Position numbers and translations under genes: made by a program. 64,000 bases of DNA from Stenotrophomonas indicatrix (GTDB lineage Bacteria; Pseudomonadota; Gammaproteobacteria; Xanthomonadales; Xanthomonadaceae): positions 2,170,001 to 2,234,000 of the forward strand of contig NZ_PEJS01000001.1 in assembly GCF_002750975.1 (NCBI RefSeq), read 5' to 3'. How positions within the stretch are numbered: position 1 is the stretch's first letter; each line of letters begins with the position of its first letter. The notes under the pieces were generated by a model that saw only the letters and a list, made by a program, of their open reading frames with translations, did not search any database and was not told the DNA's origin. Below are positions 4,202 to 63,142 of this stretch, in pieces.

Positions 4202-7200
4202 GTTGCGCTCTCCTGTTGCCTGTCCCACTGCTGCAGCCGCGCCGACAACCACGGTGCCAGCTGCGCCACCGCATCACGCCCGGTCAGTTCGGCGTGCAGG
4301 AACGGCAGCTCGATGGCATCCACCTGCAGCGCATGTGCCTTCCATAGCGCGGACTGCAACTGCGGCCGTGCCTGATGATCGCGTCCGGCCCGCACATGCG
4401 CCAGCGTTCCGACGAAGGGTCGGTGCTGGTGTTCGCGGATCAGTCGATTGGTTCCGGTCACCGCCCGTACCACGCCGTCGAGCACCACCTCGGGCAGGCT
4501 GCCCAGCGCGCTGCCGCCGCGCCGCAGGAAGGCGAGGATGCGCCCGCGATCGTCCAGTTCCGGATGCGCGTCCGGGTCATGCCCGGCGATGGCCAACAGC
4601 GCCCGCAGTGCCGCGATCGGGTCGGGCTCCGGTTCGGCACGCCAGCATTCGCTGGGATAGGCATCGAGCAGCACCAGTTCGCCGACCTCGCGGCCGATGT
4701 CATGCAGGCGCACGGCCATCGCCTGCGCGAGGATGCCGCCCACCGACCAGCCGAGCAGATGGATCGGCCCCTGTGGCTGCAGCGTGATCACCCGCTGCAC
4801 ATAGTCATTGGCCATGGCCTCGATGCTGCCTGGCAGCGGTTGCGTGGGGTCGAGCGCGGGTGACTGAAGCCCGTACACCGCGCGCGTTGGCTGCAGCGCC
4901 CGGGCCAGTGCGCGATAGTTCCAGGCAATGCCGCCTGCCGGGTGCAGCACGAACAGGGGGGCTGCGGTTGCCTCGTCGGATGCAGACAGCGCAATCACCG
5001 GCCCCAGCGCGTGATCGGCGCGTGCGGGCGGCTCGGCAATGCGTGCCGCCAGCGCGGCTACGGTCGGTTGCGCGAACAGCGCGCCCAGCCCCAGCTCGCA
5101 ACGCCAGCGCTGCTCGATGGCCAGCAGCAGGTGCACGGCCGACAGGGAGTCCCCTCCGATGCTGAAGAAATCCACATCAACCGCCACCGGCAGTTCACCC
5201 CCCAGCGCCTGTGCGAACAGCCCGGCCAGTTCCTGCTCCAGCGGCGTACGCGGCGCCTGCCCCGCAACGTCCTGCTGCGGCGGTTTCGGCAGCGCAGACC
5301 GGTCCAGCTTGCCATTGGCGGTCACCGGCCACTGATCCACGCCCACGAACGCAGACGGCACCATGTAGTCCGGCACCCGCGCCAGCAGATGGCTGCGCAG
5401 CGCCGCTGCATCGAACAGCGCCGTCGGCACATAGGCGACCAGCCGCGCCTCGCCGGGTAGATCATCGCGCAACAGCACTTCCACCCGGTCCATTCCAGGC
5501 AGCTCGCGCAACGCTGCTTCAATCTCGCCAAGTTCGATGCGCAGGCCGCGCAGCTTTACCTGATGGTCGCTGCGCCCCAGGTACTCGACCGCACCGTCGC
5601 CCCGCCAGCGTGCCACGTCGCCGGTGCGGTAGATGCGCTCACCCGGCAGGAACGGATCCGCCAGGAAGCGCTCGGCCGTCAGGTCGTCGCGGCCGAGATA
5701 GCCGCGCGCCAACTGCACACCGCCGAGGTACAGGTCACCGGCCACGCCCACCGGCACGGGCTGCATCCGTGCGTCCAGCACATACAGGCGGGTGTTCCAG
5801 ACCGGGAAACCGATCGGCACCGGGCGCGAGCGGTCATCGGCCGAGGCTGGCCACCAGCTCACATCCACTGCCGCTTCGGTCGGCCCGTAGAGGTTGTGCA
5901 GTTCGGCATGTACCCGCGCGTGGAAGCGGTCACGCAGTGCGGCATCCAGCGCCTCGCCACTGGTGAACACGCGCCGCAGCCGCAGGTCCTGTGAGGCCGG
6001 TGCAGCCAGGAACGCATCCAGCATCGACGGTACGAAATGTGCGGTGGTGACACCATGGACGCGGATCAATCGCGCCAGCTCGGTCGGGTCGCGGTGTGCG
6101 TCCGGCCCCGCCAACACCAGCGTCGCGCCGCACAGCAGTGGCAGGAAGAATTCCCAGACCGATACGTCGAACGTTGCCGGGGTCTTCTGCAGAATCCGGT
6201 CGTCGGCACCCATGCCATAGTGCTCGCGCATCCACAGCAGGCGATTGACGATGGCTCGGTGTTCGATCACCACGCCCTTGGGCTCGCCGGTCGAACCGGA
6301 GGTATAGATCACATAGGCCGCATCGTCGCCCGTCGGGCCCGGCCAGGGTGCGGCAAAGCTCACGTCGGTCCACTGCTCCGGCGGCAGCACCGGCACATCT
6401 GAAAGACGGGATTGCACGCCGGCCTCTGCCAGTACGCAGACCGGTTGCGCCGACGCCAGGATGCGCGCCAGGCGCTCCGCGGGATGGGCAAGGTCCAGTG
6501 GCAGGTACGCGCCGCCTGCACGCAGCACTGCCAGCAACGCAACCACCAGTTCCAGCGAACGCGGCAGCGCTACGGCAACGACCGTGCCCGGGCCCACGCC
6601 CAGCGAGCGCAGCTGCGCGGCCAGGGCGAAGCTGCGGGCCTCCAGCGCAGCATGGTCCAGCGTCGTATCGCCGAACACCAGCGCCGCTGCCGACGGATCG
6701 CGGTCCATGCCCTGCTGCAGCAGTTCGACCAGGGTGGTGCCAGGCAGCGCATGCGTGGTGGCATTGAAGCCATGCACGACCTGCTTCAATTCTTCCGGCG
6801 TGGCCAGTGGCACCGTCGCGATGTCTTCGGCCAGCAGCGCGGCCGACACGAAATGCAGCAGCCGCCGGGCATGCGCCTTCATGTCATCCAGCCCATACAG
6901 GGCCGGGTTTGCTTCAATCTCCAGATCCAGCAGGGTCTGTCCATCGCCACGGAAGCCCAGTGTCAGGTCGTCGACCGGGCCGGTGCTCAGCACTTCCAGT
7001 GAAGCCTGCACACCCGGCAGCGCCAGCGGCTTGTAGAACGGCTGTACGTTGATCAACGGCCCATGCAGACGGTGCTGTGCACCGACCAGGCCGAGGTCAC
7101 GACGCAGCTGTTCGCCACGGTAGCGCCCATGCTTGCGGCTCTGACTGAGCTGGCGCCCGATGCGCCGGCAGAATTCCTCGACGCCGCCCTCGCCCCCTGC

Positions 7201-48900: not shown

Positions 48901-49737
48901 TCAGTGCGATCGGGCCACGCCCGCGATCTGCACCCGGCGATTGGGCGCCAGGCAGGCGATCAGCTCGCGCCGGTTGCGCTGGTCGCACTGCACCAGCGGT
49001 TCGGCCGCACCCCGCCCTTCAGCGCTGATGCTCGCCGCGGATACGCCGCCCTGTACCAGCGCCATGCGCACCGCCTCGGCACGTCGCTGCGACAGCGTCT
49101 GGTTGTAGGCAGCGCTGCCGATGCGGTCGGTGTAGCCGACCACCTGGATCGACTGCACCTGGCTGGCCTCACGCACCTGCGCCAGTACACCCTGCACGGC
49201 CTGCTGGCCGCTGGCACTGAGTACGGCACTGTCGAAGCCGAACAGTGCATCGGCAGCCAGCCGCAGCGGCTGCTCCGGCAAGGGCGCCGGCGCCGGCGGT
49301 GGCGGCGGACGCGGCGGGTCGAGGACCGCTGCGCACGATTCAGGCTTCCAGTAGCCGCCCTGGGCGATGCCCTTGTTGTCGAAGCGCACCTGGAACTGGC
49401 AGGTGAAGTACTCCGCGCCCTGTGCGGTGCGGAAGTTGAACAGGTAGTTCCACTCGCGCACGCCCCACATGCCTTCGTTGAAGTGCGGGGTGCCGAGCAA
49501 CGTGTACAGCTGGCGCTTGCTCATGCCCGGTGCGAACCGGCGCAGGTCGGCGATATCCGGATAGATGCCTTCCTTCAGCGATGCCTTGCTGGCCTCCGGG
49601 AAGGTGACGGCGGTGCTGTCGGCCAGGCCGTCGGCGGCCGGTGCGTGGCTGCGGCAGGCAACCAGCAGCCCTGCGGCCAGGATCAGGCCCAGCGTGGCGG
49701 CGACGCGGCCACTGCGAGCGATGCGATGCGGTTTCAT
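48901..49737 (-). CDS. tpgA: OmpA-family lipoprotein with SmpA/OmlA domain (TpgA-like)
   Basis: A 278-residue lipoprotein: signal with lipobox LLVAC near residue 28, an SmpA/OmlA (BamE-like) domain (DLRRFAPGMSKRQLYTLLGTP), a proline-rich linker (PPRPPPPPAPAP), and a C-terminal OmpA peptidoglycan-binding domain (VVGYTDRIGSAAYNQTLSQR). This order is that of Acinetobacter TpgA, which anchors the trimeric autotransporter Ata to the cell wall and helps its export. It lies 62 bp after the adhesin gene on the same strand and should be its partner. Confidence 0.85.
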   Translation of the reverse strand: MKPHRIARSGRVAATLGLILAAGLLVACRSHAPAADGLADSTAVTFPEASKASLKEGIYPDIADLRRFAPGMSKRQLYTLLGTPHFNEGMWGVREWNYLFNFRTAQGAEYFTCQFQVRFDNKGIAQGGYWKPESCAAVLDPPRPPPPPAPAPLPEQPLRLAADALFGFDSAVLSASGQQAVQGVLAQVREASQVQSIQVVGYTDRIGSAAYNQTLSQRRAEAVRMALVQGGVSAASISAEGRGAAEPLVQCDQRNRRELIACLAPNRRVQIAGVARSH

Positions 49738-49799
49738 GTCATTCCCCCTGTAGACGTTGCCCGCTGCGCCGGGCCGCGAATGCGACCCGGCGCAGGCGA

Positions 49800-52700
49800 T
49801 CACCACTGGATGCCGGCACCGACGGCCACACCGGCCTCGCCGCGGCTGTTGGTGGAACCACTGAACTTGTAGATCCAGCGACCGCCCTCGGAGACACCGG
49901 AGATGCCCAGGGCCACGCCGGATTCGCCGTTGTAGCTGCCGGCGGCGATCGAGGCCATGTTGCGGCCGGCTTCGCTGGGCTGCGGCAGCGATGCGGTTGC
50001 CATCGCCGAGGCGATACCGGCCGAGGCGCGGTTGTCGGTCTTGCGCAGGTCGCGTTCGAAGCCGCCCATGCGCTCATCGGTGTAGGCCTTGGACCAGTCC
50101 AGGGTCTGCGCCATGCCCGACTTCAGCTGGTCGACGTTGACCGCGTCGGTACCGGCGGTGCCGGCAGCGACGTTGCGCACCGTGGTCGGGCCGCTGCTGG
50201 TGCTGCCCAGGGTCACGCTGTTGTAGTTGGTGGTGCCGTTGGTGGTGGTGTCATAGCGGATCGTGCCCTGCTGCGAAGCCTGCAGCTGGCGCACGTTGAC
50301 CGCATCGGTCGCCTGCGAACCATCGGCCACGTTGACCACCTGGCGTTCGGCACCGGCTGCACCCACCGACACCGTATTGGCGCGGTTGGCGACCGAGCCC
50401 GCACCCAGCGCCACCGAGTTGTCTGCCTGCGCCTGCGAGCCGTTGCCCAATGCGGTCGAGTTGGCCCCGGCCGCAGTGGAGCCGGCACCGCCCGCGGCGG
50501 AGTTGGCGCCGGTGGCGGCCGGATCGGCCAGGTTGTTGCTGTTGTTGGCGCGGAAGCTGCCGGCAACGTTGGTGATGTTCTGGATCTTCTGGTCGGTGTA
50601 GGCCTTGGACTGGTCGATGGCGTAGTTCACGCCGTTCTTCAGCTGGCCGACGTTGGTCGCATCGTGGTCGTCGGAGCCATCGGCCACGTGGGTGATCTTG
50701 CGCTCGCTGCCACTGCTGCCCACCGCCACCTCACCGGACGAGTTGCTGGCGCCGGCCTGGCCATAGGCACCGGTATAGCCGGTCTGCGCACCGACGCTGG
50801 CCACCGAACCGGCACCCAGCGCAACACTGTTGCCTGCGCTGGCATTGGCACCGTTGCCGACCGCTACGCTGCCCGCACCGGCTGCGCTGGCCTGCGGGCC
50901 GACCGCCAGTGCTTCGGCACCGGTGGCCGTGGCTGCGGCAGCCGTGGAGTTGACCGCCAGGTACGGGCTGCCGCCGCCGCTGCTGATGCGCTGGTTGAGC
51001 ACCCGCAGCGAGCCGTCCACTGCAGAGAACGCAGCGGTGACGTTGCTGTAGTCGTTGCCGGTGATGGTGCCATCGGTGGCGATGGTGGAGATGTTGAAGG
51101 TCGGCGCGGTCCACAGCCCGGTGCTGCCGTTGTACACGGTGCTGCCACCGAAGTAGCTGGCCACCGTCTGGTGCGTGCTGAACAGCTGGTCGCCGGTGAT
51201 GGCATCGCTGCTGCCCGCCAGGATGCTGCCGGCGGCCACGTTGGTGACTTTCACCGGTGCACCGCCGGTACCGCTGAGGGTCACGGTATCGACCACGTTG
51301 CCACTCCCGTCCACGTCGTACTTCACGGCGCGCGCGTCCAGGTCATCGGTCTGCTCGGCCACATTGGCCAGCGAATTGCTGACCGCATCGAAGGCCGTGC
51401 CGACGTCGTTGTAGCTGCCCTGGCTGACCGTGCCATTGGCGGCGACGTTGTTGAGCGTGTAGGTCGGCGCGGTGACCACGCCATTGGCATCCACTGCAGC
51501 GCCGCCGCCGAGGTGGGTGGCCACCGTCTGGTTGGCCGCGAACAACTGCGCACCGTTGATTGCTTCACTGCTGGCCGCGCTGATCTGGCCCGGGCCGAGG
51601 TTGCGCAGCGTGGTGGCGGTGCCGGACTCGCCGAGCGTCGCACTTGCGTAGTTGACGCTGCCGTCGCCGTTGAGGTCGTAGCGCAGCGCGCCCTCTTCTG
51701 AAGCCTGCAACTGACCCAGGTTGACCGCATCGGTGCTGGCGGTGCCGGCGGCGACGTTGGTGACCTGGCGTTCGGCGCCCGCGGCACCGATCGACACGCT
51801 GTTGGCACGGTCGGCCAGGCTGCCGGCACCGACCGCGATGCTGTTGGCGGCGGTTGCGCTGGCACCGGCACCGACGGCGATTGCTTCGGCGCCGCTGGCC
51901 ACGGCGTCGGCACCGGTCGAGTTCACCCGCAGGTACCGGGTGCCGGTGTTGCGGATGTCATTGATCTGGGTGTTGAGGTTGACCAGCGAACCATCCACCG
52001 CATCGAAGGCGTCGGTGACGTTGTCATACAGCCCCGGGGCCACGGCGCCACCGGTGGAGATGGTGCTGATCTCGAACAGCGGTGCGGTGAAAGTGCTGGT
52101 GAGCGGATCGAACGCTGCGCGTCCGCCGAAGAACTTTGCCATCGTGTCGTTGCTGGCGAACAGCTGCGCACCATTGACCGCCTCGCTGCTGGTGGCGTTG
52201 ACCGCGCCGGCGGCCAGGTTGCCGATGGTGGTGGTGCCGGTGCCATTGCCGAGGGTGACACGGCGATAGTCGGGGTCGCCTGCACCATCCAGGTCATAGG
52301 TGACCGCCGCCGCGCCGACCGCGTCGATCTGGCTGATCGCACCCTTCAGCTGGGCCACGTTGACTGCATCGGTGTTGGCGCTGCCGGCCGCCAGGTTGGT
52401 GATCTGCCGCTCGCCACCGCCTGCGGTGCCCACCGACACCTCGCCCGCCGACACCTGTGCGGTGGTCAGGCCGTAAGCGCTGTAGCTGGCCTGCGCGCCG
52501 CGCAGTGCGGCCGAGCGATAGCCCAGCGCCACCGAGTTGGCCTGGTTGGAGGTGCTCTCTGCGCCGAGCAGGGTCTGCCCGTTGGCAGTGCCGCTGGCAC
52601 TGTCGCCGACCACCACCGAGTGCCCCATGCGTGCTGCATAGTCGGCGGTGGGAACGCCGGTCGGATCGCTCGGATCATTGGCGCCCGCGCCCGGGAAGGC

Positions 52701-54371
52701 GACGTTGGCGTCGACCTTGGGCAGCTCATGGCGGGCGTTGGCACCGATCACCACTTCCTTGGATCCGTTGGCATAGGCGCCATCGCCCATCAGCACCTGG
52801 TAGTCCTGCGCTGCGTTGACCGCCCAGCAGGAGATGTCCGCCAGCGCGATGTCCAGGCACTTGGCCGCCCAGGCCGGCGAGTCCGTCGGCAGCAGCAGGC
52901 CGAGCAGGCCACCGGGATTGCCGTTGTTGATGTTGTAGATGTAGCTGTCGGAGGTGACGCCACCGATCAGGGTCAGGTGCGAGCTGCCACCGGTGACCGC
53001 GCCACCCAGTCCGTTGAGCGTGGTGCCGACCGGCGTCGCATTGACCACCGGCAGGCCGAGCACGTTGACCGTGGAATAGGTCTGCATGACGTTGGCGGTG
53101 CTGAGCTTGAGGTTGCCGTTGGACAGGTAACCGGTGCCGCCGAACAGGCTGGCGGTGGTCGGGCCGAGCAGTTCGGTGACACCGCCCACCAGGCCACCGG
53201 TACCGATCACCAGGCCCGCGTTCGGGTCGGCAGCGGCGGGCGCCTTCGGGCTGGTCGGCGGAATGGCCGACGGCGAGGTCAGGCCGAGGCTGCCCAGGGT
53301 ATTGCCGACCAGGCCACCGACGGCGCCGGTCAGGTTGCCGACGGTGCCGTTGAGGTCACCATTGAGCAGGCTGCCGACCGCGCTGCCAACGCCGTTGAGC
53401 GCAGTGCCGACGCCGTTGAGCAGGCCGCCCAGGCCCAGCGCGCTGTTCTGCGCGGCGACGGTTGCGGTGCCGGCCAGCTTGAGATTGCGATCGGCGACGA
53501 TTTCCTCGCCGTCCTTGCCCTGCACCCGTACCTTGCCTGCCACGCCGGTATCGAACGCTGCGGTGATCGCGCGGTCATCGGTGTCACCCGGCAGCTCTTC
53601 CTTGGCCGGCAGTGTGACCGCTGCGGTGGCCTCGGCCTGGCCCTGGCCTTCGATGTGATTGCCGGCCACGACCAGCTGCGCATCGACCTTGCCATCCACG
53701 GCCGCCTTCAAGCCGGACGGCGTTACACCCGCTGCCGCGGCAACCCGGGTGCCGGCGTCAATGCTGGCAACCGGCTTGCCGGCGATGCCGACATCGGCCT
53801 TTGCTGCCGCGTTGGCGGCCAGACCCAACGGCGCCTGTGCGGCCGGTGCGACGTTCGCCGCAAGCGCGGCATCGACACGGGTAGCGGCTGCAGTGCCAAC
53901 ACCGATGTTGGCGCGCACGTCGGCGCCCAGCACCGGTGCAGGCACCTGGCGCGGCGCGGCGCCGGCCGCCAGCTTGACCTGCACGGTGGCCGGCAGCACG
54001 TCGCGCACGACCGGCAATGACGTTGTGCTCAGCTGCAGGCCGACGCGTGCGTTGGCACTGATCGCCGGGTTCGCCTGGGCCTGTCGTGCAGCCGCGGCCA
54101 GCGCCACTTCGGCGTCCACCTTCACCGGCATCGGCTGGGTGTACTTGGCCGCCAGCGCCTGCAGGTCGCGCAGCGATTGATTGGCCTCTGTCGCCGCCGC
54201 AGGTCCGCTGGCCAGCACGCACAGCAGTGCCATGGCCAGGGTGCTGGGCACCAGAAGGCTGGCACGACGGTCGCGCGGTGCGGTACCACCGCTATCGCCG
54301 GTGGCCAGTTCCGAGGCCACAACCAGAGCATTGAGCTGGCGGTTCCATACACGCCGGTATATGCGGTTCAT
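49800..54371 (-). CDS. Trimeric autotransporter adhesin (YadA/Ata type)
   Basis: A 1523-residue adhesin. MNRIYRRVWNRQLNALVVASE is an extended signal peptide region of the type V secretion class, cleaved near PAAATE. Residues ~45-400 are alanine-rich and lack head repeats. From ~540 come YadA-head-like repeats (NSVALG, NSIAVG, NTVSVG) and neck motifs (RQVTNVAAGTASTDAVN), repeated about five times, then a coiled stalk (QSKAYTDQKIQNI) and a ~75-residue trimeric membrane anchor ending GVAVGAGIQW. It would mediate adhesion or biofilm. The ATG at 54371 is chosen; one at 54377 would add two residues. Confidence 0.93.
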   Translation of the reverse strand: MNRIYRRVWNRQLNALVVASELATGDSGGTAPRDRRASLLVPSTLAMALLCVLASGPAAATEANQSLRDLQALAAKYTQPMPVKVDAEVALAAAARQAQANPAISANARVGLQLSTTSLPVVRDVLPATVQVKLAAGAAPRQVPAPVLGADVRANIGVGTAAATRVDAALAANVAPAAQAPLGLAANAAAKADVGIAGKPVASIDAGTRVAAAAGVTPSGLKAAVDGKVDAQLVVAGNHIEGQGQAEATAAVTLPAKEELPGDTDDRAITAAFDTGVAGKVRVQGKDGEEIVADRNLKLAGTATVAAQNSALGLGGLLNGVGTALNGVGSAVGSLLNGDLNGTVGNLTGAVGGLVGNTLGSLGLTSPSAIPPTSPKAPAAADPNAGLVIGTGGLVGGVTELLGPTTASLFGGTGYLSNGNLKLSTANVMQTYSTVNVLGLPVVNATPVGTTLNGLGGAVTGGSSHLTLIGGVTSDSYIYNINNGNPGGLLGLLLPTDSPAWAAKCLDIALADISCWAVNAAQDYQVLMGDGAYANGSKEVVIGANARHELPKVDANVAFPGAGANDPSDPTGVPTADYAARMGHSVVVGDSASGTANGQTLLGAESTSNQANSVALGYRSAALRGAQASYSAYGLTTAQVSAGEVSVGTAGGGERQITNLAAGSANTDAVNVAQLKGAISQIDAVGAAAVTYDLDGAGDPDYRRVTLGNGTGTTTIGNLAAGAVNATSSEAVNGAQLFASNDTMAKFFGGRAAFDPLTSTFTAPLFEISTISTGGAVAPGLYDNVTDAFDAVDGSLVNLNTQINDIRNTGTRYLRVNSTGADAVASGAEAIAVGAGASATAANSIAVGAGSLADRANSVSIGAAGAERQVTNVAAGTASTDAVNLGQLQASEEGALRYDLNGDGSVNYASATLGESGTATTLRNLGPGQISAASSEAINGAQLFAANQTVATHLGGGAAVDANGVVTAPTYTLNNVAANGTVSQGSYNDVGTAFDAVSNSLANVAEQTDDLDARAVKYDVDGSGNVVDTVTLSGTGGAPVKVTNVAAGSILAGSSDAITGDQLFSTHQTVASYFGGSTVYNGSTGLWTAPTFNISTIATDGTITGNDYSNVTAAFSAVDGSLRVLNQRISSGGGSPYLAVNSTAAAATATGAEALAVGPQASAAGAGSVAVGNGANASAGNSVALGAGSVASVGAQTGYTGAYGQAGASNSSGEVAVGSSGSERKITHVADGSDDHDATNVGQLKNGVNYAIDQSKAYTDQKIQNITNVAGSFRANNSNNLADPAATGANSAAGGAGSTAAGANSTALGNGSQAQADNSVALGAGSVANRANTVSVGAAGAERQVVNVADGSQATDAVNVRQLQASQQGTIRYDTTTNGTTNYNSVTLGSTSSGPTTVRNVAAGTAGTDAVNVDQLKSGMAQTLDWSKAYTDERMGGFERDLRKTDNRASAGIASAMATASLPQPSEAGRNMASIAAGSYNGESGVALGISGVSEGGRWIYKFSGSTNSRGEAGVAVGAGIQW

Positions 54372-54400
54372 GAGCATTTCCCCCGTAGGCGGACAACTTG

Positions 54401-54439
54401 AATGTCAGTGGACTTGCCGTTAGGCAGGTGACTGACATT
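54401..54439. promoter_or_regulatory. Hairpin in the leader of the adhesin gene
   Basis: AATGTCAGT (54401-54409) pairs with ACTGACATT (54431-54439), and CTTGCC-GTTA-GGCAGG extends the stem inside. It lies 30-68 bp before the adhesin start, so it could be a leader structure or an operator. Confidence 0.5.
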
Positions 54440-54469
54440 TCGCGCCTTTCAGCGAGGGCTGAGCACTTC

Positions 54470-54541
54470 ATTCCGGCAGGGCAATCGCGCATTCCGGCAA
54501 ATCCACGGCCGGATTCGGCAGCCACATATGCAAATCCGGCA
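54470..54541. promoter_or_regulatory. Four direct repeats at 21 bp spacing upstream of the adhesin
   Basis: ATTCCGGCA (54470), ATTCCGGCA (54491), GATTCGGCA (54512) and AATCCGGCA (54533): the shared CGGCA begins at 54474, 54495, 54516 and 54537, each exactly 21 bp after the last, about two helical turns. They lie 100-170 bp before the adhesin start. Such phased direct repeats are typical operators of activators such as AraC proteins, and one is encoded next door. Confidence 0.65.
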
Positions 54542-54550
54542 GGGAGGGCT

Positions 54551-54745
54551 GGCCGGGCTGCCGCCCGGCACCCGCAGAGGCGAAAACAAAAGCCAAAGCC
54601 GAAGCAACAGCCGGCTCTGGGTTTTCTGCGGGTTGGCGGGGCGGTGTGGGCTTGCAGGACACGCCGTAAACCCGTCCATGGGGCTCGATGGCGCCATCCA
54701 TGGCGCCAACGGTCCGGCAAGCCCACACCGCCCCACCTGTGACAG
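54551..54745 (+). repeat. Hairpin module, copy 1
   Basis: A 31-base segment (54551-54581) is followed by a variable AAG-rich tract, then 18 bp perfect arms (GGGGCGGTGTGGGCTTGC at 54638-54655 and its complement at 54717-54734). The 61-base loop carries a 21-base core (54663-54683) and an inner GGCGCCAT-CC-ATGGCGCC hairpin (54690-54707). The GACAGTTTCC flank ends the unit. Copy 2 lies inverted 160 bp away. Confidence 0.75.
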
Positions 54746-54857
54746 TTTCCCCACGACGGTTCGATCTGCCGTCGTGCATTCACTGTCGACATGATCGATC
54801 TTTGATTTTCAGTGATTATTTCGATCTAAATCGAAATTGATGATCCGACTTTCCCTC

Positions 54858-54880
54858 GGCCGGGCATGGCCCGGCGCTAC
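54858..54880 (-). repeat. SMAG palindrome, GCCGGGC subtype, between the two modules
   Basis: On the minus strand GTAGCGCCGGGCCATGCCCG.. with the usual stem. It sits between the inverted modules. Confidence 0.8.
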
Positions 54881-54898
54881 ATCCAAAGCGCGCGGGAA

Positions 54899-55087
54899 AC
54901 TGTCGAAGGCGGGGTGGGTCCGGTTGCGGGGGTGTCCGCGGCATGGATGCCGCGGCCAAGCCCCCATGGACGGGTTTACGGCGTCCCCCGCAACCGGACC
55001 CACCCCGCCATTCCACAGGAAACCTGCTTTTGCTTTCGGCAGTTGCCGTTGCCCTTGCCTCTGCGGGTGCCGGGCGGCAGCCCGGCC
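54899..55087 (-). repeat. Hairpin module, copy 2 (inverted)
   Basis: Perfect 25 bp arms (54908-54932 and 54985-55009) enclose an inner CCGCGGCAT-GG-ATGCCGCGG hairpin (54936-54955) and the complement of the same 21-base core (54963-54983). The 31-base segment recurs at 55057-55087 in complement. Core and end segments match copy 1, but the arms and inner stem differ in sequence while staying self-complementary. Confidence 0.75.
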
Positions 55088-55095
55088 GATACCCC

Positions 55096-56076
55096 TCAGG
55101 CTGGCTGGCCGAGCTGTGCCGGCGCGCGCATCAGCGTGTCACGCGGCAGTTCGCCGAACACTTTCCGGTAGTTGTCGGCAAAGCGCGAAAGATCCCACAG
55201 CCCGCAACTGAGGGCGATGGCCTTGACCGAACGCCGGTTGGAATCGGCCATCGACAGGCTGCGGCAGGCCGCGCACAGCCGCAGCATCGACAGGTAGCGA
55301 TTGGGCGAGGTGCCGAACAGATCCTCGAACGCATAGCGCAGGCCACGCTCGCTGACGCCGGCGGCGTCACAGATTTCATTCATGTAGATATTGCGGCGAA
55401 GATTGAGGCGCATGAAGTTCTCCGCCCGCTGCGCGATCAGGTAATGCGTGCGGCGGGCGCGGCTGCAACTGGGCCGATCGGCTGGGCCGGCACCGAGCAG
55501 CGCCTGGACATGCTCGTGCAGCAGGCGCTCGGTTTCTTCCGGCTGCAGCCCACCCCCCTGCCCCAGCTGCGCGTGCAGTTGCTGGTAATGGCGTACCAGC
55601 GGCATCGCATCATCGCCAAGGTTGAACAGTGAAAGCGCCTGCCCCGCCGGTGGCGTGCTGCGCAGGCTCAGCTCGGTCAACTTGCGCTGCACGCGCGCGA
55701 CCGGCACCAGCATCAGCGTCATCTGGGTACCAGGGCTGAGAGTGAATTCACTGATGCCTTCGGGCATCACGGTCAAGGCCATGCCCGGCGTCAGCGGCAC
55801 GCCATGGCACCAGCTCAATGCATCATCGGTGGTGTGCAGGTAGCCGAGCATTGCCCAGTCCGGCGGCAGCATGAAACGGCCGCGGCAGTGGAAGCCACAG
55901 GTGATGCTGCAGAACAGGGCTTCCTCGTGAACGCGCGAAGCAAATGCCGCGCGCGGACCATTGCCATCCAGCAGCAACAGTTCCACATCGCACACGCGGA
56001 GCACGCCGCTCAGCGTGGCCAGGTCGATTGACCTGAGATCGCCGTCGTCGTTGTCTTCCACCCCACCATCGACCAT
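55096..56076 (-). CDS. AraC family transcriptional regulator
   Basis: A 326-residue protein with an N-terminal cupin-like sensing domain and two C-terminal helix-turn-helix units: IYMNEICDAAGVSERGLRYAF near residue 235-255 and AIALSCGLWDLSRFADNYRKVFG near 290-312. The ATG at 56076 is preferred; frames up to 56283 continue but lose similarity. It stands between the adhesin and the Flp pilus genes, and repeated motifs lie upstream of both, so it may activate them. Effector unknown. Confidence 0.83.
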   Translation of the reverse strand: MVDGGVEDNDDGDLRSIDLATLSGVLRVCDVELLLLDGNGPRAAFASRVHEEALFCSITCGFHCRGRFMLPPDWAMLGYLHTTDDALSWCHGVPLTPGMALTVMPEGISEFTLSPGTQMTLMLVPVARVQRKLTELSLRSTPPAGQALSLFNLGDDAMPLVRHYQQLHAQLGQGGGLQPEETERLLHEHVQALLGAGPADRPSCSRARRTHYLIAQRAENFMRLNLRRNIYMNEICDAAGVSERGLRYAFEDLFGTSPNRYLSMLRLCAACRSLSMADSNRRSVKAIALSCGLWDLSRFADNYRKVFGELPRDTLMRAPAQLGQPA

Positions 56077-56309
56077 GACAGTGTCGTCCCCCGTTTGGCC
56101 TGCCGCACGACCCCGCCCCCACTGCCTGACAGGGCGCACGCCGTTTCCAAGAGCATCGTCCGTTGCCGAGATGGACGCTGCGATGCACGCGCGTCCCTCC
56201 CTGAAAATGCAAAACCTTGAATGCGAGTATGCCCGATAATCGGCAGTCGTAAACAGGATGTTTCGACGCTGCGGAATTATCAACTGCGTGAAGAAAATGT
56301 GCGCGCCGA

Positions 56310-56325
56310 TGGCATGGTTTTCGCA
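56310..56325 (+). promoter_or_regulatory. Sigma-54-like promoter candidate
   Basis: TGGCATGGTTTTCGCA has GG and GC separated by ten bases and differs from the TGGCACG-N4-TTGCA consensus at two positions. It points toward flp but lies about 440 bp upstream. Confidence 0.3.
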
Positions 56326-56411
56326 TGCGCGCGGATGGGCATCACATTATCTGCACGACCATGAATCGTTTTGCGCAGGAACGGATTTACGTCACAGATC
56401 CGCGCCGCAAT

Positions 56412-56480
56412 ATTCAGGCATCCAGCGAATCTGCCGAATTTGCATATAGGTTCCGGTTGCAGGGAACCGCCATTCAGGCA
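56412..56480. promoter_or_regulatory. Motif cluster upstream of flp related to the adhesin operator
   Basis: ATTCAGGCA occurs at 56412 and 56472, and an inverted AATTCGGCA at 56432-56440. The minus-strand ATATGCAAATTCGGCAG (56431-56447) matches 16 of 17 bases of ATATGCAAATCCGGCAG at 54526-54542, in the same orientation relative to its downstream gene. Confidence 0.55.
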
Positions 56481-56767
56481 AAGTCGAATACACGGTGATC
56501 GGGCACGCAGACAGCGGCCACACCCAGGGGGACAGCATGACCATGCACGTACGAGATACCGTTTCGACCACCGGCCTGGAGCTGGGTGGTCGTGGTTGCG
56601 CGGCCGCTGCCCTGCCCGGGAATGATCACCCTGCTTGAGCACAGCGGGATTGCCCGCCGTGCCTCCTCCGCCAGGATGGCGGGGGCCTACGGACGGTCCC
56701 GGCGGAGCCGGGCCACCGCCCATGCAGGTGTCCTGCAGCAACTGACAGGTAGAGGGAGACAACCGTC

Positions 56768-56950
56768 ATGAACGCATCGATCCGCAAGTTCCTGAAAGAA
56801 GAAGATGGCGTGACCGCGCTCGAATACGGGCTGCTGGCCGCCGTGATCGCCGGCATCCTGATCGTGGTGGGCAGAACCCAGATCACCGCGTTCTTCACCA
56901 CGTTGTTCACCCGCCTGCAGGCCATTGCCACCGACGCCACCACCACCTAG
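56768..56950 (+). CDS. flp: Flp-type pilin
   Basis: A 60-residue type IVb pilin. The prepilin site is in EEDGVTALEYGLLAA, with the Glu at +5 after the cleaved Gly and a hydrophobic helix to residue ~38. CpaA, encoded next, should process it. The ATG follows GAGGGAGA. It is assembled by the Tad/Cpa machinery for tight surface adherence. Confidence 0.93.
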   Translation: MNASIRKFLKEEDGVTALEYGLLAAVIAGILIVVGRTQITAFFTTLFTRLQAIATDATTT

Positions 56951-57050: not shown

Positions 57051-57596
57051 ATGACACTGCTGGGATTGCTGGCCATGGGAGTGTGCCTGCGGATTGCGAT
57101 CAGCGATCTGTACGCCCGCCGCGTGCCCAACACCTGGCTGCTGGCCGCGTGCGCGATCGCCGTGCCCCTGATCATCGCCGGCCAGTTCAATGCAACGCGC
57201 ACGGCCTGGGCGCCACACCTGCTGGGCGCAGTCGTTGGCCTGCTGGCATTGCTGCCGTTCTATGCGGTGCGCTGGATGGGCGCCGGCGATGTGAAGTTCT
57301 TCGCCGTGCTCGGCCTGCTGCTGGGCTGGAAGGCATTGCTGCCGGTGTGGGTGCTGGCCAGCGTGGCCGCAGGTGCCCACGCCGTGCTGGTGCTGGCCGG
57401 TCGGCAGTTGGCCGGTCACCTGCCGCTGCGCCTGCAGATGCAGGTAAACCGCGCCAGCACGCATTTGAATGGCCACCCTGCCCTGCGCGAACTGCATGCC
57501 GCGCGCGAGGGGCGACAGGGCATTCCCTACGCAGCCTACCTGGCCTTCGCGGCGATTGGCTGGGTGTTGGCAACCACCTATGGAGGCGTCGCATGA
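57051..57596 (+). CDS. cpaA: Prepilin peptidase CpaA/TadV
   Basis: A 181-residue inner-membrane aspartate protease of the A24 family without the methylase domain. Catalytic aspartates are in RIAISDLYARRVPN (near residue 19) and in the GAGDVKFF motif (near 81). It cleaves the Flp leader. It ends with an ATGA overlap with the next gene. Confidence 0.9.
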   Translation: MTLLGLLAMGVCLRIAISDLYARRVPNTWLLAACAIAVPLIIAGQFNATRTAWAPHLLGAVVGLLALLPFYAVRWMGAGDVKFFAVLGLLLGWKALLPVWVLASVAAGAHAVLVLAGRQLAGHLPLRLQMQVNRASTHLNGHPALRELHAAREGRQGIPYAAYLAFAAIGWVLATTYGGVA

Positions 57597-58066
57597 AAGC
57601 GTTCGCGCGCCAACGCCAACGCGGCGTGGCCAGCATCGAATTCGCGTTGATGCTGCTGCTCGGCCTGGTGCCGCTGCTGCTGCTCACCTTTTCCGGCGTG
57701 CTGATCATGGCCGCGCAGCAGACGCTGGCGACGGCCTCGGCCGAGGGCGCGCGTGCTTCGCTGCGCTTTGGCAACGCCGGCGAGCGGCGCACCGCCGCCT
57801 GCCTGGCGGCCCGTCGCTCCATGCAATGGCTGTTGCAGTTTTCCGGGCAGAACCCGGACTGCAGCGGCGGCGGCACCGGCGCCATCGTGGTCTCGCCGCA
57901 GGCGCCCTGCGCCGGCCTGGCGACGGTGCAATGCATGACCGTGACGGTGAGCTACGACTATGCGTCCCATCCCTTCCTGCCCGGCACCGCCACGCTCTAT
58001 GGCTGGGTGATGCAGGCCCCCATCCGCAGCGTCGCGGTCGCCCAGCTGGACCTCGGCAGCAACTGA
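57593..58066 (+). CDS. TadE/TadG-like minor pseudopilin
   Basis: A 157-residue protein with a short basic N-terminus and a hydrophobic helix after RQRGVASIEFALMLLLG, which carries the TadE-type prepilin motif (G/E at +5). The C-terminal part has paired cysteines (CMTV and earlier CSGG, CAGL) expected outside the membrane. It is probably a minor pilin of the Tad apparatus processed by CpaA. Confidence 0.8.
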   Translation: MKAFARQRQRGVASIEFALMLLLGLVPLLLLTFSGVLIMAAQQTLATASAEGARASLRFGNAGERRTAACLAARRSMQWLLQFSGQNPDCSGGGTGAIVVSPQAPCAGLATVQCMTVTVSYDYASHPFLPGTATLYGWVMQAPIRSVAVAQLDLGSN

Positions 58067-58090
58067 CGATCGGTACAGGAGACGATTTTC

Positions 58091-59146
58091 ATGCTCAAGT
58101 TGACCCGCATCGCCGCCATCGCGCTGATCGCGCTCGCCGTGCTGCTGGCCGTGGTCGCCTTCGTGATCGGGCGCAAGCCTGCGGCCTCGGCGGACAACCC
58201 GAGCACGATCGTGAAGGCCGATGCGCAGACCTTCAGTGTCGTTGAAGCCACCGCGCGGCTACCCGCCGGCGAGCCGATCAGCGCCAATGGCGTGCGGCTG
58301 ACACAACGCACCGCGGAAGTGCCGGGGGCCGTTGCCGACCTGGCAGCGGTGGTCGGCAAGGTGCCGGTGCAGGACATCAGCGAAGGCAGCGCGATTGCTG
58401 ACAGCCTGCTGGCACAGGGCTTCTCGCTGCAGCTGCGGCCGGGTGAACGGGCATTGGCGGTGCCGGTCGATGAGCTGGTCGCGGCAGGCAACCGCATCCT
58501 GCCCGGTGATTTCGTCGACGTCTTCCTCAACCTGCGCAGCGCCGCTACCAGCTACAACGGCCAGCAGGACATCGCACAGACGCGGTTGCTGCTGTCACGC
58601 CTGCGCGTGCTCAGCTACGGACAGCAGGACATCGCGGCAGCCCCGACGAGCAGCCAGGGCCAGGCCCCGGCCACGGCCACGGCAGGCAACGACTCACGTG
58701 CAGCCGATATCACCAGCGGTTCCAGCAGCGCCCCCAGCAACGCAAACGGTAGCGATGCCACGCAGCCGGCGCGCACCGCGGTGCTGGCGGTGCCGGTGGC
58801 CGACGCCAACCGCCTGCTGCTCGGCGCACAGCAGGGCAAGCTGTTCCTCGCCCTGCGCAATCCCGCCGATACCGGCCTGCCGGATGTGGCGCTGTTCCCA
58901 CAGGCGCGCGGCGTGCTGGACCCGGTGCGCGGCCTGGACAACGAGCAGCAGCAGGCCCTGCAGCGACCGGAGAACAACGCCTACGCCGGCCTGGATGGCG
59001 ATGCGCTGGCTGGCCGCGGCAGCAGCGTGCAGCGCAGCGTCCACGAAACGCCGGCGCGTGCACCGGTGCAGCGTCGCTCGACGCCGCGACCGGCGGGCAT
59101 CGAAATCATCCGCGGCGACACTGCTGCCCCCCGTGGCTCCCTTTGA
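58091..59146 (+). CDS. cpaB: Flp pilus assembly protein CpaB/RcpC
   Basis: A 351-residue protein with one N-terminal membrane helix (LIALAVLLAVVAFVIG) and a SAF domain (ARLPAGEPISANGVRLTQR) near residue 50-70, then a second beta domain (RPGERALAVPVDE). The C-terminal ~120 residues are low-complexity with Gln, Ser and Thr runs. CpaB binds the secretin in the periplasm. Confidence 0.9.
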   Translation: MLKLTRIAAIALIALAVLLAVVAFVIGRKPAASADNPSTIVKADAQTFSVVEATARLPAGEPISANGVRLTQRTAEVPGAVADLAAVVGKVPVQDISEGSAIADSLLAQGFSLQLRPGERALAVPVDELVAAGNRILPGDFVDVFLNLRSAATSYNGQQDIAQTRLLLSRLRVLSYGQQDIAAAPTSSQGQAPATATAGNDSRAADITSGSSSAPSNANGSDATQPARTAVLAVPVADANRLLLGAQQGKLFLALRNPADTGLPDVALFPQARGVLDPVRGLDNEQQQALQRPENNAYAGLDGDALAGRGSSVQRSVHETPARAPVQRRSTPRPAGIEIIRGDTAAPRGSL

Positions 59147-59164
59147 CCCTTGCCGAGAGCGCAC

Positions 59165-60523
59165 ATGACTGAACGTCGCCACCGCCTACGCCCCACTGTC
59201 CGCCAGCGCTGGCTGGCCCTGCTGCTGGTGCTGCTGGCACCGGGTGCGAGCGTGGCTGCCGACGATCTGTTGCTGCAGACCCGCGAACAGCGGCCATGGA
59301 CGCTGCCGGCCGACCTGGAACGGGTTGCCATCGCCGACCCCGGCGTAGCTGACATCGTGATGCTGCGCGGCGCACGCCAGGCGCTGCTGGTAGGCAAGGC
59401 CCCCGGCACCACCACCCTGCTGCTCTGGCATCGCAAGCAGAGCGAACCGCAGCGCGTGCAGGTGCGGGTGCAGAGTGCCGTGCAGGGGGCCGCCGATGCC
59501 GGCTCCAGCGGACTGGTGTTCACCCAGCAGGACCAGCAGGGGCTGCTGCAGGGAAGCAGCGACAGCGTGCTGGCGCACATGCAGGAGCAGAAGACCGCGG
59601 TGATGGCGCTCGGCAAGGACGGCAGCCTGGCCGATGCCTCCACCATCAGCAGCGGCGGCGTAGTGCAGGTCGAGGTGAAGGTGGTCGAGTTCAACAAGAC
59701 CGCGCTGAAGCAGATCGGCATCAACTTCCAGAACCGCAACGGTGGTTTCGCCTATGGATTCGCGCGGCCGGGCGGGCAGCTGCCAGGCAACACCGGCATC
59801 CTGCCTGGCATGAAGGAAGGTGAGTCGAGCAACGAAAGCGAGTCACCGATCTCCTCGGCGTTCAGGCTGGTGTTCGGTTCGACCAAGGGCCTGTGGAACG
59901 CCGATGTCGACCTGCTGCAGGCCAACGGCATGGCGCGCGTGCTGGCCGAGCCCACTCTCGTCGCGCTGTCCGGGCAGAGCGCCAGCTTCCTGGCCGGTGG
60001 CGAACTGCCGATCCTGGAGCCGCAGGGGCTCGGCACGACCACGGTCACCTACAAGCCCTTCGGCATCGGCCTCACCGTTACTCCCACGGTGCTCTCACCG
60101 AACCGCATTGCGTTGAAGGTTGCCCCGGAAGCCAGCGACCTGGACTACACCAATGCGATCGCGCTCAACGGCGTGCAGATCCCTTCGATCACTACCCGCC
60201 GCGCCGACACCACCGTCGAGCTTGGCGATGGTGAGAGTTTCGTCATCGGCGGCCTGGTCAGTTCCACCGTGGCTTCGACGGTCAACAAGATTCCGCTGCT
60301 CGGCGACCTGCCGATCATCGGTACGTTCTTCCGCAACTTCGACTACAAGCGCCAGGACAAGGAACTGGTGATCATCGTCACCCCGCGGTTGGTACAGCCG
60401 ATTGCCCGCAATACCGAACTGCCGCTGCCCGGCGATCGCGAAGCCAAGCCGAACATGCCCGAATGGGGCGCGTGGCTGCTTGGCCCGATCAGCCGCGATC
60501 CGGTTCCCGGTTTCTCGCGCTGA
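59165..60523 (+). CDS. cpaC: Outer-membrane secretin CpaC/RcpA
   Basis: A 452-residue secretin with a signal peptide cleaved near SVAAD, an N-terminal pilus-type domain (VAIADPGVADIVMLRGARQ and LLLWHRKQSEP), and the secretin core: ARVLAEPTLVALSGQ near residue 260 and the signature GGLVSSTVASTVNKIPLLGD near 365. It forms the outer-membrane pore for the Flp pilus. The ATG at 59165 is chosen over 59150. Confidence 0.93.
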   Translation: MTERRHRLRPTVRQRWLALLLVLLAPGASVAADDLLLQTREQRPWTLPADLERVAIADPGVADIVMLRGARQALLVGKAPGTTTLLLWHRKQSEPQRVQVRVQSAVQGAADAGSSGLVFTQQDQQGLLQGSSDSVLAHMQEQKTAVMALGKDGSLADASTISSGGVVQVEVKVVEFNKTALKQIGINFQNRNGGFAYGFARPGGQLPGNTGILPGMKEGESSNESESPISSAFRLVFGSTKGLWNADVDLLQANGMARVLAEPTLVALSGQSASFLAGGELPILEPQGLGTTTVTYKPFGIGLTVTPTVLSPNRIALKVAPEASDLDYTNAIALNGVQIPSITTRRADTTVELGDGESFVIGGLVSSTVASTVNKIPLLGDLPIIGTFFRNFDYKRQDKELVIIVTPRLVQPIARNTELPLPGDREAKPNMPEWGAWLLGPISRDPVPGFSR

Positions 60524-60596
60524 CCTGCATGACGTCTCCGGTACTACGCCCATGCCCTACGCCACTGCCCTGCCGCTGCACCCGCAAGGACCACCG

Positions 60597-61808
60597 ATGA
60601 ACCTGGTCCTGTACGGGATCGACCGTGAACTGCTGCCACGCCTGGCTGCCAAGCTGCCGCCGACCACGGCACTGCACTGGCAGGACAGCAGCGAGCCGAC
60701 CTCGGCCCAGGACCTGCAGCGTGGCCCGCAGAACCTTGTACTGCTGGACTTCCGCCCGGAGCATGCCTCGGCATCGACAGTGCTGGCCCAGCAGCTGCAG
60801 CAGACCCAACCCGAATTGACCCTGGTGGCGGTGGGCGCCACCAGCGCCGGCCAGGTGGAAGGCGTGGTGATGGCGCTGCGCGCCGGCCTGCGCGATGTAC
60901 TGGACCTGGACAGTGACAACACCGGCATCGAAGCCGCCCTGCGTCGCGCTTTGTCACCGCGCCCCGCCGCAAGCGCGCAGCAGGCGCACAAGGCGCGCCT
61001 GATCGTGCTGCTGGGCGTGCGCGCCGGCGTCGGCACCAGCACGTTGGCCGCACATCTTTCGGTGCTCGCACAGCAGACCCGCACCTTGGCCCAGGGCGAT
61101 GCCGCCGTACAGGACGGGCTATTGATGGAGCTGGCGCAGCCGGCCGGCGACCTCGCCCTGTACCTCAACCTGGACAGCCGCTTCCACTACGAAGATGCGC
61201 TGCGCAATGCCAGCCGCATCGATGCCACCCTGGCCCGCACGGCGATGGCCCGGCACACCAGCGGACTGGTCCTGCTCGACCGTGCCAGTGGCAGCGACGC
61301 ACTGCCTCCGTCCGATCCTGGTGCGCTGCTGCAACGACTGCGCGGCGTATTCTCCAGCGTACTGTGCGATGCCGGCGGCTGCCCGCTGCGGCAGCTGCCG
61401 CCGCTGCTGCTGGACCAGGCCGATGAAATCTGGCTGGTGGCCGACGCATCGATCGCCACCCTGGTGTCGCTGGACCACGCCCTGAAGCACCTTTCCGGCC
61501 AGCGCGACCGCGAGAAGCGACTGCAGCTGGTGATCAACCGCCACGACGACAACAGTGGCATGAGCCCCGAACAGATCGCGCGCCGCTTCGAGCTGCCGCT
61601 GCTGGCCACCCTGCCCGAGCGGTCGCGGGTACGCGCCTCCGCCAGCCATGGCCATCTGCTGCTGCAGGATGCGCCGCGCGACCCGTACCTGCGTGCCCTC
61701 GCCCCGCTGGTGCAACGCCTGGATCCGGCTGCCTGCCCGGTCCAGGCGCACGGCCTGCGGGAAAGACTTGCCCTTGCCCTGGGTGGATCGCAATGGAAGA
61801 CAAAGTGA
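60597..61808 (+). CDS. cpaE: Pilus assembly ATPase-like protein CpaE/TadZ
   Basis: A 403-residue protein with an N-terminal response-regulator-like fold (LVLLDFRPEHASAS) and a MinD/ParA-type C-terminal domain. The deviant Walker A is GVRAGVGTSTLAAHLS, which lacks both lysines of KGGxGKT, so ATP hydrolysis is doubtful. TadZ localises the Tad machinery at the pole. The ATG at 60597 has an AAGGA site. Confidence 0.88.
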   Translation: MNLVLYGIDRELLPRLAAKLPPTTALHWQDSSEPTSAQDLQRGPQNLVLLDFRPEHASASTVLAQQLQQTQPELTLVAVGATSAGQVEGVVMALRAGLRDVLDLDSDNTGIEAALRRALSPRPAASAQQAHKARLIVLLGVRAGVGTSTLAAHLSVLAQQTRTLAQGDAAVQDGLLMELAQPAGDLALYLNLDSRFHYEDALRNASRIDATLARTAMARHTSGLVLLDRASGSDALPPSDPGALLQRLRGVFSSVLCDAGGCPLRQLPPLLLDQADEIWLVADASIATLVSLDHALKHLSGQRDREKRLQLVINRHDDNSGMSPEQIARRFELPLLATLPERSRVRASASHGHLLLQDAPRDPYLRALAPLVQRLDPAACPVQAHGLRERLALALGGSQWKTK

Positions 61809-63142
61809 CCCCGTTCCCGCACGTTGTCGCCCGCAGCACGGTGCCGGAGCATGCACCGGGCAGCCTGCCGTTCGCACAGACCGAGCAGTACCAGAAGGTG
61901 CTGTCGGCCGCGCACGAGCATCTGCTCAACAGCATCGAAGACGAGCGCATCGACATCGATTCCTGGGCCCCCGACACCATCGCCCGCTGGGTGGAAGTGC
62001 AGACGGTCAGTTTCATCCAGGAATGGCGCATCCCCATCAACGAAGAAGAAATGCAGGTGGTGGCCGAAGGCCTGGTCAAGGAGCTGACCGGGTTCGGCCC
62101 GCTCGATGACCTGCTGCATGACCCCACCATCGAAGACATCCTGATCAATGGCTTCAAGGATGTGCATGTCTCCCAGGGTGGGCAGCTCAAACGCGCACCT
62201 CAGCGCTTCACCGATGACACCCACCTGCTACGCATCCTGCGCCGCATCATCGCCCCACTCGGCCGCCGCCTGGATGATTCCAATCCGATGGTCGATGCAC
62301 GCCTGCCCAATGGTGGCCGCCTCAACGCGATCATCTCGCCACTGGCGGTGGATGGGCCGATGGTGTCCATCCGCAAGTTCCGCAAGGATCCGTTCACCCC
62401 CGACGAACTGCTGGCCAAGGGCACCTTCGATGCGCCGATGCAGGCGCTGCTGAAGGCGATGGTGCTGGGCCGCTGCAACATCCTGGTGTCAGGTGGCACC
62501 AGCTCGGGCAAGACCTCGCTGCTCAATGCGCTGGCCAGCTATGTGCCGGCCAACGAACGCGTCATCACCGTGGAAGACACCGCCGAGCTCTCGCTCAACC
62601 ACCCGCATGTGGTGCGGCTGGAGAGCCGCATCGGTGGCGCCGAAGGCCAGGGCGCGGTCAGCATCCGCGACCTGGTGCGCAACAGCCTGCGCATGCGCCC
62701 GGACCGCATTGTGGTCGGCGAAGTGCGTGGCGCCGAGGTGCTGGAGATGCTGCAGGCGATGAACACCGGCCATGACGGATCGATGGCCACCATCCACGCC
62801 AATTCACCGCGCGACTGCCTGTACCGCATCGAGATGCTGGCCGGCTTCGCCGGTTTCCAGGGCAGCGAAGACAGCCTGCGCCGGCAGATCGCCAGTGCCA
62901 TCGACTTCATCGTGCAGATCTCGCGCCTGGGCAGCGGCCGCCGGGTGCTGGTGTCCATCACTGAAATCACCGGCGTCAGCGACAACCTGATCACCACCCA
63001 GGAGATGTTCCGCCACGAAGTGCAGATCGATGGCAGCGGCAAGGAAATCGACCGTTGGATCGGCCTCGGCTTCCAGCCACATTCGCACAAGCTGGAGCCG
63101 TTCCGGCAGTTGCTGCGCGAATCCCTGTACGGAGACTTCTGA
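61793..63142 (+). CDS. cpaF: Pilus assembly ATPase CpaF/TadA
   Basis: A 449-residue type II/IV secretion ATPase. Motifs are Walker A SGGTSSGKTSLLNA near residue 231, Asp box region VITVEDTAEL near 260, and Walker B RIVVGEVRGAEVLEML near 304, with the His box GHDGSMATIHANS near 324. It powers Flp pilus assembly. It overlaps cpaE by 16 bp. Confidence 0.94.
   Translation: MEDKVTPFPHVVARSTVPEHAPGSLPFAQTEQYQKVLSAAHEHLLNSIEDERIDIDSWAPDTIARWVEVQTVSFIQEWRIPINEEEMQVVAEGLVKELTGFGPLDDLLHDPTIEDILINGFKDVHVSQGGQLKRAPQRFTDDTHLLRILRRIIAPLGRRLDDSNPMVDARLPNGGRLNAIISPLAVDGPMVSIRKFRKDPFTPDELLAKGTFDAPMQALLKAMVLGRCNILVSGGTSSGKTSLLNALASYVPANERVITVEDTAELSLNHPHVVRLESRIGGAEGQGAVSIRDLVRNSLRMRPDRIVVGEVRGAEVLEMLQAMNTGHDGSMATIHANSPRDCLYRIEMLAGFAGFQGSEDSLRRQIASAIDFIVQISRLGSGRRVLVSITEITGVSDNLITTQEMFRHEVQIDGSGKEIDRWIGLGFQPHSHKLEPFRQLLRESLYGDF

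Follow-up and report, generated by a model that had tools for sequence, protein, structure and literature searches.

ToxT and Rns are AraC-family activators of pili, acting through other site sequences than those described below, and in Pseudomonas aeruginosa the response regulator PprB co-activates Flp/Tad pili and a large adhesin. CuxR, another AraC-like protein, responds to cyclic di-GMP (c-di-GMP). Here we analysed a stretch of 64,000 nucleotides from Stenotrophomonas indicatrix (assembly GCF_002750975.1, contig NZ_PEJS01000001.1, positions 2,170,001 to 2,234,000; the window), in which a gene for an AraC-family protein, araC, lies between the gene of a trimeric autotransporter adhesin and the flp and tad genes of a Tad/Flp pilus. 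Our results suggest that this protein is very probably the local activator of an adhesion regulon, which would bind 15-bp sites stepped every 21 bp and would control the adhesin, the pilus and, where present, a third adhesin. This provides a concrete predicted regulator, operator and start site for three Stenotrophomonas adhesion systems. In the Stenotrophomonas literature on Tad/Flp, trimeric adhesins/YadA and AraC proteins, judged by titles and abstract openings, no publication on this regulator was found, which weakly supports its absence from print.

The sites resemble those of XylS at the Pm promoter of Pseudomonas putida. These sites read TGCA-N6-GGNTA-N6-TGCA-N6-GGNTA with a 21-bp period (PMC4514859), the second one overlaps the -35 by two bases (PMC4225500), and the proximal site is reported to be the first that XylS loads (PMC5481539, PMC4225500). 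A 15-bp site with a two-base -35 overlap and a 17-bp spacer places the -10 at 36 nt past the site start, exactly as observed here. Both systems have 15-bp sites in which 6 bp separate the A box from the B box, 21-bp direct repeats and a proximal site abutting the -35. The present array differs in having four steps instead of two, in its surface-structure targets, and in that the complete site is the distal one, whereas XylS loads the proximal site first; the distribution of complete sites suggests that the loading order at the adhesin would be the reverse of that of XylS. Note that the core here is TGCC-N6-GCATA and not the TGCA-N6-GGNTA of XylS proper.

Candidate operators of the adhesin and flp genes

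The first-pass annotation of this DNA had proposed that one activator switches on the trimeric adhesin and the Tad pilus together, from repeated motifs before the adhesin and a matching one before flp. The CGGCA motifs that it placed at 54474, 54495, 54516 and 54537 do occur there, in steps of exactly 21 bp, and the gene at 55096-56076, between the two motif clusters, is of the AraC family as it had said (Pfam HTH_18). The 21-bp period stood, but CGGCA as the repeat unit did not: the unit is longer, TGCCG-N5-GCATA when read toward the adhesin, and is complete only in the distal copy. Read in that direction (minus strand), boxes 1 to 4 start at 54541, 54520, 54499 and 54478. The features are as follows.

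49800..54377, minus strand: trimeric autotransporter adhesin, 1525 aa, from the open reading frame (ORF) list; Pfam ESPR, YadA_stalk (six stretches), YadA_head and YadA_anchor; start codon ATG 54377 or ATG 54371
54437..54442, minus strand: CGAAAT, -10-like hexamer at the adhesin promoter, located exactly 36 nt past the start of box 4
54458..54478, minus strand: box 4 (promoter-proximal), TGCCGGAATGAAGTGCTCAGC, abutting the -35 position
54479..54499, minus strand: box 3, TGCCGGAATGCGCGATTGCCC, from array comparison and alignment
54500..54520, minus strand: box 2, TGCCGAATCCGGCCGTGGATT, from array comparison and alignment
54521..54541, minus strand: box 1 (distal), TGCCGGATTTGCATATGTGGC, the sole copy with a complete B box
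55096..56076, minus strand: AraC-family regulator, 326 aa, Pfam HTH_18 67.3 bits; the proposed activator
56412..56420, plus strand: ATTCAGGCA, noted in the first-pass annotation
56432..56446, plus strand: flp operator, full site TGCCGAATTTGCATA, 336 nt 5' of the flp ATG and oriented to flp as box 1 is to the adhesin
56468..56473, plus strand: poor -10-like hexamer CGCCAT, a weak element at offset +36 from the flp site
56472..56480, plus strand: ATTCAGGCA, an inverted box-like motif
56768..56950, plus strand: flp pilin, 60 aa, Pfam Flp_Fap
57051..63142, plus strand: Tad assembly genes (prepilin peptidase, RcpC/CpaB, secretin, CpaE-like, T2SSE ATPase), from Pfam, with the CpaE-like label assigned by eye from the translation

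When the 718-bp spacer was resampled with a first-order Markov model, none of 20000 resamplings gave a run of at least three TGCCG at period 21. With any period from 10 to 63 allowed, a run of three appeared in 4 of 4000 resamplings and a run of four in none of 4000.

We compared the array over 61 loci matched by AraC (60 fetched, plus the window), which reduced to 48 distinct ones; without the distant non-orthologue L060, 47 were left, 45 with the adhesin and two (L054 and L055) without it. All 45 adhesin loci carry four boxes at exactly 21 bp, and 175 of the 180 box cells read TGCCG, the other five TGCCA. Moreover, a [T/C]NNANT hexamer stands at +36 from the last box start in 45/45: TGAAAT in 25, TGTAAT in 6, CGAAAT in 4, TGTACT in 3, CGTAAT in 2 and five similar hexamers once each. 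L054 and L055 retain the array, with TGTAAT and TCTAAT, respectively. The 47 arrays aligned in MAFFT without a gap over 108 columns, with 18 of 20 columns invariant within TGCCG versus 5 of 82 outside the boxes and the -10. Scored with a matrix made from the flp sites, box 1 was the best of its array in 47/47 (mean 16.6 bits; flp site 26.4), and boxes 2 to 4 had means of 1.6, -8.2 and -5.9 bits, because they retain only the A box. A scan for sigma-70-type promoters gave no match, and the adhesin promoter has no good -35; this is expected for an activator-dependent promoter, although it is not proof of one.

At flp, the stretch 54526-54542 agrees with the reverse complement of 56431-56447 (CTGCCGAATTTGCATAT) in 16 of 17 bases, as the first-pass annotation had found. 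In 46 of the 47 loci, all but L059, a full site (at least 13 of the 15 consensus positions) precedes flp or, in L054 and L055, those tad genes that remain. When the set was enlarged to 76 distinct loci, leaving out the short-flank duplicates L063 and L064, a site scoring 20 bits or more was present in 64 of the 66 with flp in range. The highest score among 760 shuffles of the flp upstream regions was 16.3 bits, a comparison that is partly circular since the matrix was built from the same sites. Less circular is a pattern search of the 4.56-Mb genome, in which TGCCGNWTTTGCATA had two exact matches, both at this locus, none with one mismatch and 14 with two; its reversed control pattern matched 17 times in all. 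Frequent random occurrence of the motif across the genome, which would have spoken against the proposal, was not seen for the full site. Note that a plain search for three TGCCG at period 21 was too loose and was replaced by the full-site pattern and an array profile, R1: at least 90 of 91 genus genomes match it, most of them several times, and of the five such triples in the window's genome two are the array itself.

In distant loci the +36 hexamer of the flp site is GAGCAT, GACACT, AAGAAT or others, with a weak preference in the last two positions (A 0.79, T 0.87 over the distinct sequences of 64 flp sites). Both ATTCAGGCA motifs of the first-pass annotation, at 56412 and 56472, are present; the 56472 type is conserved in 36 of 38 close loci, but the 56412 type in only one of the 38, and neither was constant by eye in the more distant loci compared.

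Conservation, linkage and further candidate targets

The first-pass annotation had asked for a comparison across Stenotrophomonas strains. The register is kept across the genus and also outside it, in four further genera from the same family and in a second family within the order; the AraC orthologues examined there are those of L144-L149 (59-61% identity) and of L173-L184, respectively. The second family is probably Rhodanobacteraceae, since Rhodanobacter, Fulvimonas and Dyella have homologues at 57-58%. L145-L149, L173-L175 and L177-L179 (the latter six at 50-57% identity) have the four-box array with a -10-like hexamer at +36, and three-box versions were seen by eye in L144 (L170), with TGTAAT at +36, and in L182 (47% identity), with TCTAAT at +36. 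An automated array test, searching up to 900 nt after araC, was passed by 70 of the 76 loci, including L144, which really has three boxes; it failed at six loci, L176 because of masked N, L182 because it has three boxes, and L180, L181, L183 and L184. Gene order and orientation, adhesin-araC-flp, are identical in 30/30 loci from named genomes, mostly Stenotrophomonas, fetched via the AraC protein. Two of the close homologues, P0007 and P0016, are labelled Serratia marcescens and Bacillus subtilis, and these records are probably mislabelled or contaminated.

Next, we scanned 91 genomes of the genus. AraC is present in 79 (E 1e-60), and in all 79 the R1 profile matches beside araC at E ≤2.7e-11, R1 and AraC positions being compared by eye; in the 12 genomes without AraC the best R1 match reached only E=4.8e-4. 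R1 was trained on the 47 loci, which include a good part of the scanned genomes. Three genomes (G002, G015 and G092; loci L095, L096 and L171) have no CpaB, and neither an adhesin start nor flp stands beside their araC, but araC, the four-box array and the second site are kept. The second site precedes a CpaE-like gene (G015, G092) or a T2SSE-type ATPase gene (G002), both named by eye.

A weaker R1 match, unlinked to the locus (G000:C1:1589151-1589221, E 2.5e-5) and common to relatives, precedes the gene of a very large surface protein that carries CshA_NR2, GEVED, DUF11 and isopeptide-type domains. The features of this place, from R1 match and domain search, are:

L131, boxes at about 4650-4725, gene from 4977: CshA_NR2-type locus

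From these boxes, the regulator probably also drives this unlinked CshA_NR2-type protein, via three boxes. The gene occurs in 18 of the 91 genus genomes and is preceded by boxes in 16 of them, two judged by eye. Two exact TGCCG boxes 21 bp apart stand before it in 14 of the 18; in these 14, a third box 21 bp further up is exact in one (G098), has one mismatch in nine and two in four, including the window's genome, and TACAAC (13) or TATAAC (1) starts 37 nt past the last box start. The two seen by eye lie in other sequence contexts: in G113 there are two boxes, of which the first is a complete site, and in G065 a single good box. A non-exhaustive search for further targets, with the two-box and -10 pattern at one mismatch in five genomes, gave 7-10 matches each and no convincing new target; it recovered the adhesin array in 5/5, and the other matches looked like GC-rich coding stretches.

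In six second-family loci (L173-L178) a site also faces araC itself, 100-109 nt before its start, and in five of the six it lies 36-37 nt before TCTAAT or TTTAAT. Autoactivation of araC is possible in that family. We do not claim autoregulation for the window's clade, where no araC-facing site scores above the shuffles, although such a site occurs in the second family and in some other loci.

The regulator and competing explanations

The 326-aa protein has a cupin-type N-terminal domain and a C-terminal domain with two helix-turn-helix (HTH) motifs, and the predicted model (mean predicted local distance difference test, pLDDT, 81.7) gave fold matches. It has both features of the AraC/XylS family, the two-HTH C-terminal domain and an N-terminal sensor/dimerisation domain that is cupin-like, as in AraC, CuxR and ExsA; the operator agrees with the family in its 21-bp period and its position next to the -35, but only the distal copy and the flp site have the B box in full. 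None of the 11 listed NCBIfam equivalogs of AraC type (AndR, EutR, RhaS and others) scored above its cut-off, the best being AndR with 83.7 vs 350 bits; EutR had 58.5 vs 319. CuxR (5nla) matches in fold at 15% identity. ToxT and Rns are matched by Foldseek over most of the chain and also control pilus genes, as is predicted here, but identity is 10-13%, and the present target would be a Tad pilus controlled in common with a trimeric adhesin. The predicted role, one regulator for Flp/Tad pili and a large adhesin, is that of PprB; unlike PprB, this protein showed only the AraC HTH in the Pfam scan and no receiver domain, as PprB-type response regulators would have.

We infer the following mechanism. 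The AraC-family protein would bind 15-bp TGCCG-N5-GCATA sites that are directly repeated in 21-bp steps. At the adhesin promoter it would meet a complete distal site and then three steps with the A box (TGCCG) only, the last of which abuts the -35 and would set RNA polymerase on a -10 exactly 36 nt past its start, as in class II activation, in a promoter with no good -35. At flp, one complete site would act alone at the promoter-proximal place. A single regulator would in this way turn on the trimeric adhesin together with the Tad/Flp pilus and, in genomes that have it, the third adhesin. The proposal of the first-pass annotation is supported by the conserved register, by the rarity of the full site, and by a spacing, half-site shape and -10 position like those of AraC/XylS operators, and it would extend to a third, unlinked promoter. 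An array of four steps, in which the distal site is complete and the others have the A box alone, makes an unusual operator, whose cooperativity and expression order are directly measurable, and natural three-box and four-box versions are available for comparison. Rather speculative is a loading ladder, in which the distal complete site would nucleate the regulator, which then would spread over the A-box-only steps. The adhesin would thus need more active regulator than flp, whose single complete site is at the promoter; the pilus would come first, the adhesin later and the CshA-type protein last, and the CuxR-like sensor domain might tie this order to a signal of surface life such as c-di-GMP.

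Several observations weigh against an AraC-driven adhesion regulon. Nearly all compared loci were fetched via AraC, so that the presence of araC in them is selection; only the R1 scan and the pattern searches are independent of this, and R1 itself was built from 47 such loci. The 12 genomes without AraC also have no CpaB, and the array may be missing from them only because the island is. Boxes 2 to 4 have no recognisable B box and for this reason may not be true sites. The flp -10 is poor in the window's clade (CGCCAT), and L059 and L145 have flp without a strong site. Box 1 of the CshA-type promoter is degenerate in the window's genome, and before the CshA-type genes of G109 and G104 (2/18) no boxes were seen. 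The AraC homologues of L180, L181, L183 and L184 (47-48% identity) have no adjacent array. The araC-facing sites of L174 and L175 score only 14.1 bits, below the shuffle maximum, and rest on their common position and -10; in the window's clade such a site is lacking (2.3 bits in the window and at most 14.0 in 38 close loci, where shuffles reach 16.3).

The shared loss of AraC, CpaB and the array indicates one linked island, in which array, adhesin, flp and araC are gained and lost together, and linkage alone, in loci mostly fetched by AraC, does not name the binder. Another conserved regulator might bind the array, with the AraC-family gene there by coincidence or controlling something else. 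We regard this as improbable: direct repeats of A and B boxes at 21 bp that abut a -35 are the AraC/XylS pattern, araC itself bears a site in the second family, araC and the sites persist where the adhesin and flp beside araC are gone, and exact full sites are not scattered through the window's genome as those of a global regulator would be. Slightly less improbable, and still unlikely, is that the AraC-family protein binds but acts as a repressor, or as repressor and activator in turn, through AraC-like loops that join the clusters at flp and the adhesin, which lie about 1.9 kb from each other. AraC itself both represses and activates, the sites flank araC on both sides, and an inverted box-like motif stands after the flp site in 36/38 close loci; however, the 56412 motif is not conserved, and a last box abutting the -35, a fixed -10 distance and no good -35 are the usual geometry of an activator.

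Chance, or the spread of a repetitive extragenic palindrome (REP)-type repeat, has a negligible probability in our judgement. The spacer of the window does hold REP-like inverted repeats, and most genus genomes have several TGCCG triples of period 21 among the matches listed, but the register is kept over two families and resampling never reproduced the array. Moreover, in 41 of the 45 adhesin loci the spacer is short, 158-230 nt (229-230 nt in 21 of the 48 distinct loci), and the array is the same, which speaks against a REP or palindrome origin of the boxes. The HrpX-type PIP (plant-inducible promoter) box has a period of 20; it was dropped as a candidate, since the period here is 21 and the core differs.

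Other features of the locus

The REP-like inverted repeats are nested at 54551-55087, between araC and the array, with arms at 54551-54603/55035-55087, 54639-54683/54962-55006 and 54908-54932/54985-55009. Rfam matches in the spacer (Ysr224 and microRNA families) scored well under the gathering thresholds, and we attribute them to chance similarity with the palindromes.

On the other side of the adhesin, an ORF at 48901-49806 (minus strand) encodes a lipoprotein with BamE and OmpA domains. As listed it overlaps the adhesin stop by 7 nt, and a later ATG may be its true start. Comparable lipoproteins lie 3' of the adhesin in L169 and L170 (by eye), and the protein is possibly an assembly partner of the adhesin in a single operon. 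Finally, a short ORF of 33 aa (56537-56638, plus strand), with GGGGGA before its start, lies between the flp operator and flp; GGGGGA followed by ATG is found in many relatives, and the encoded peptide looks variable.
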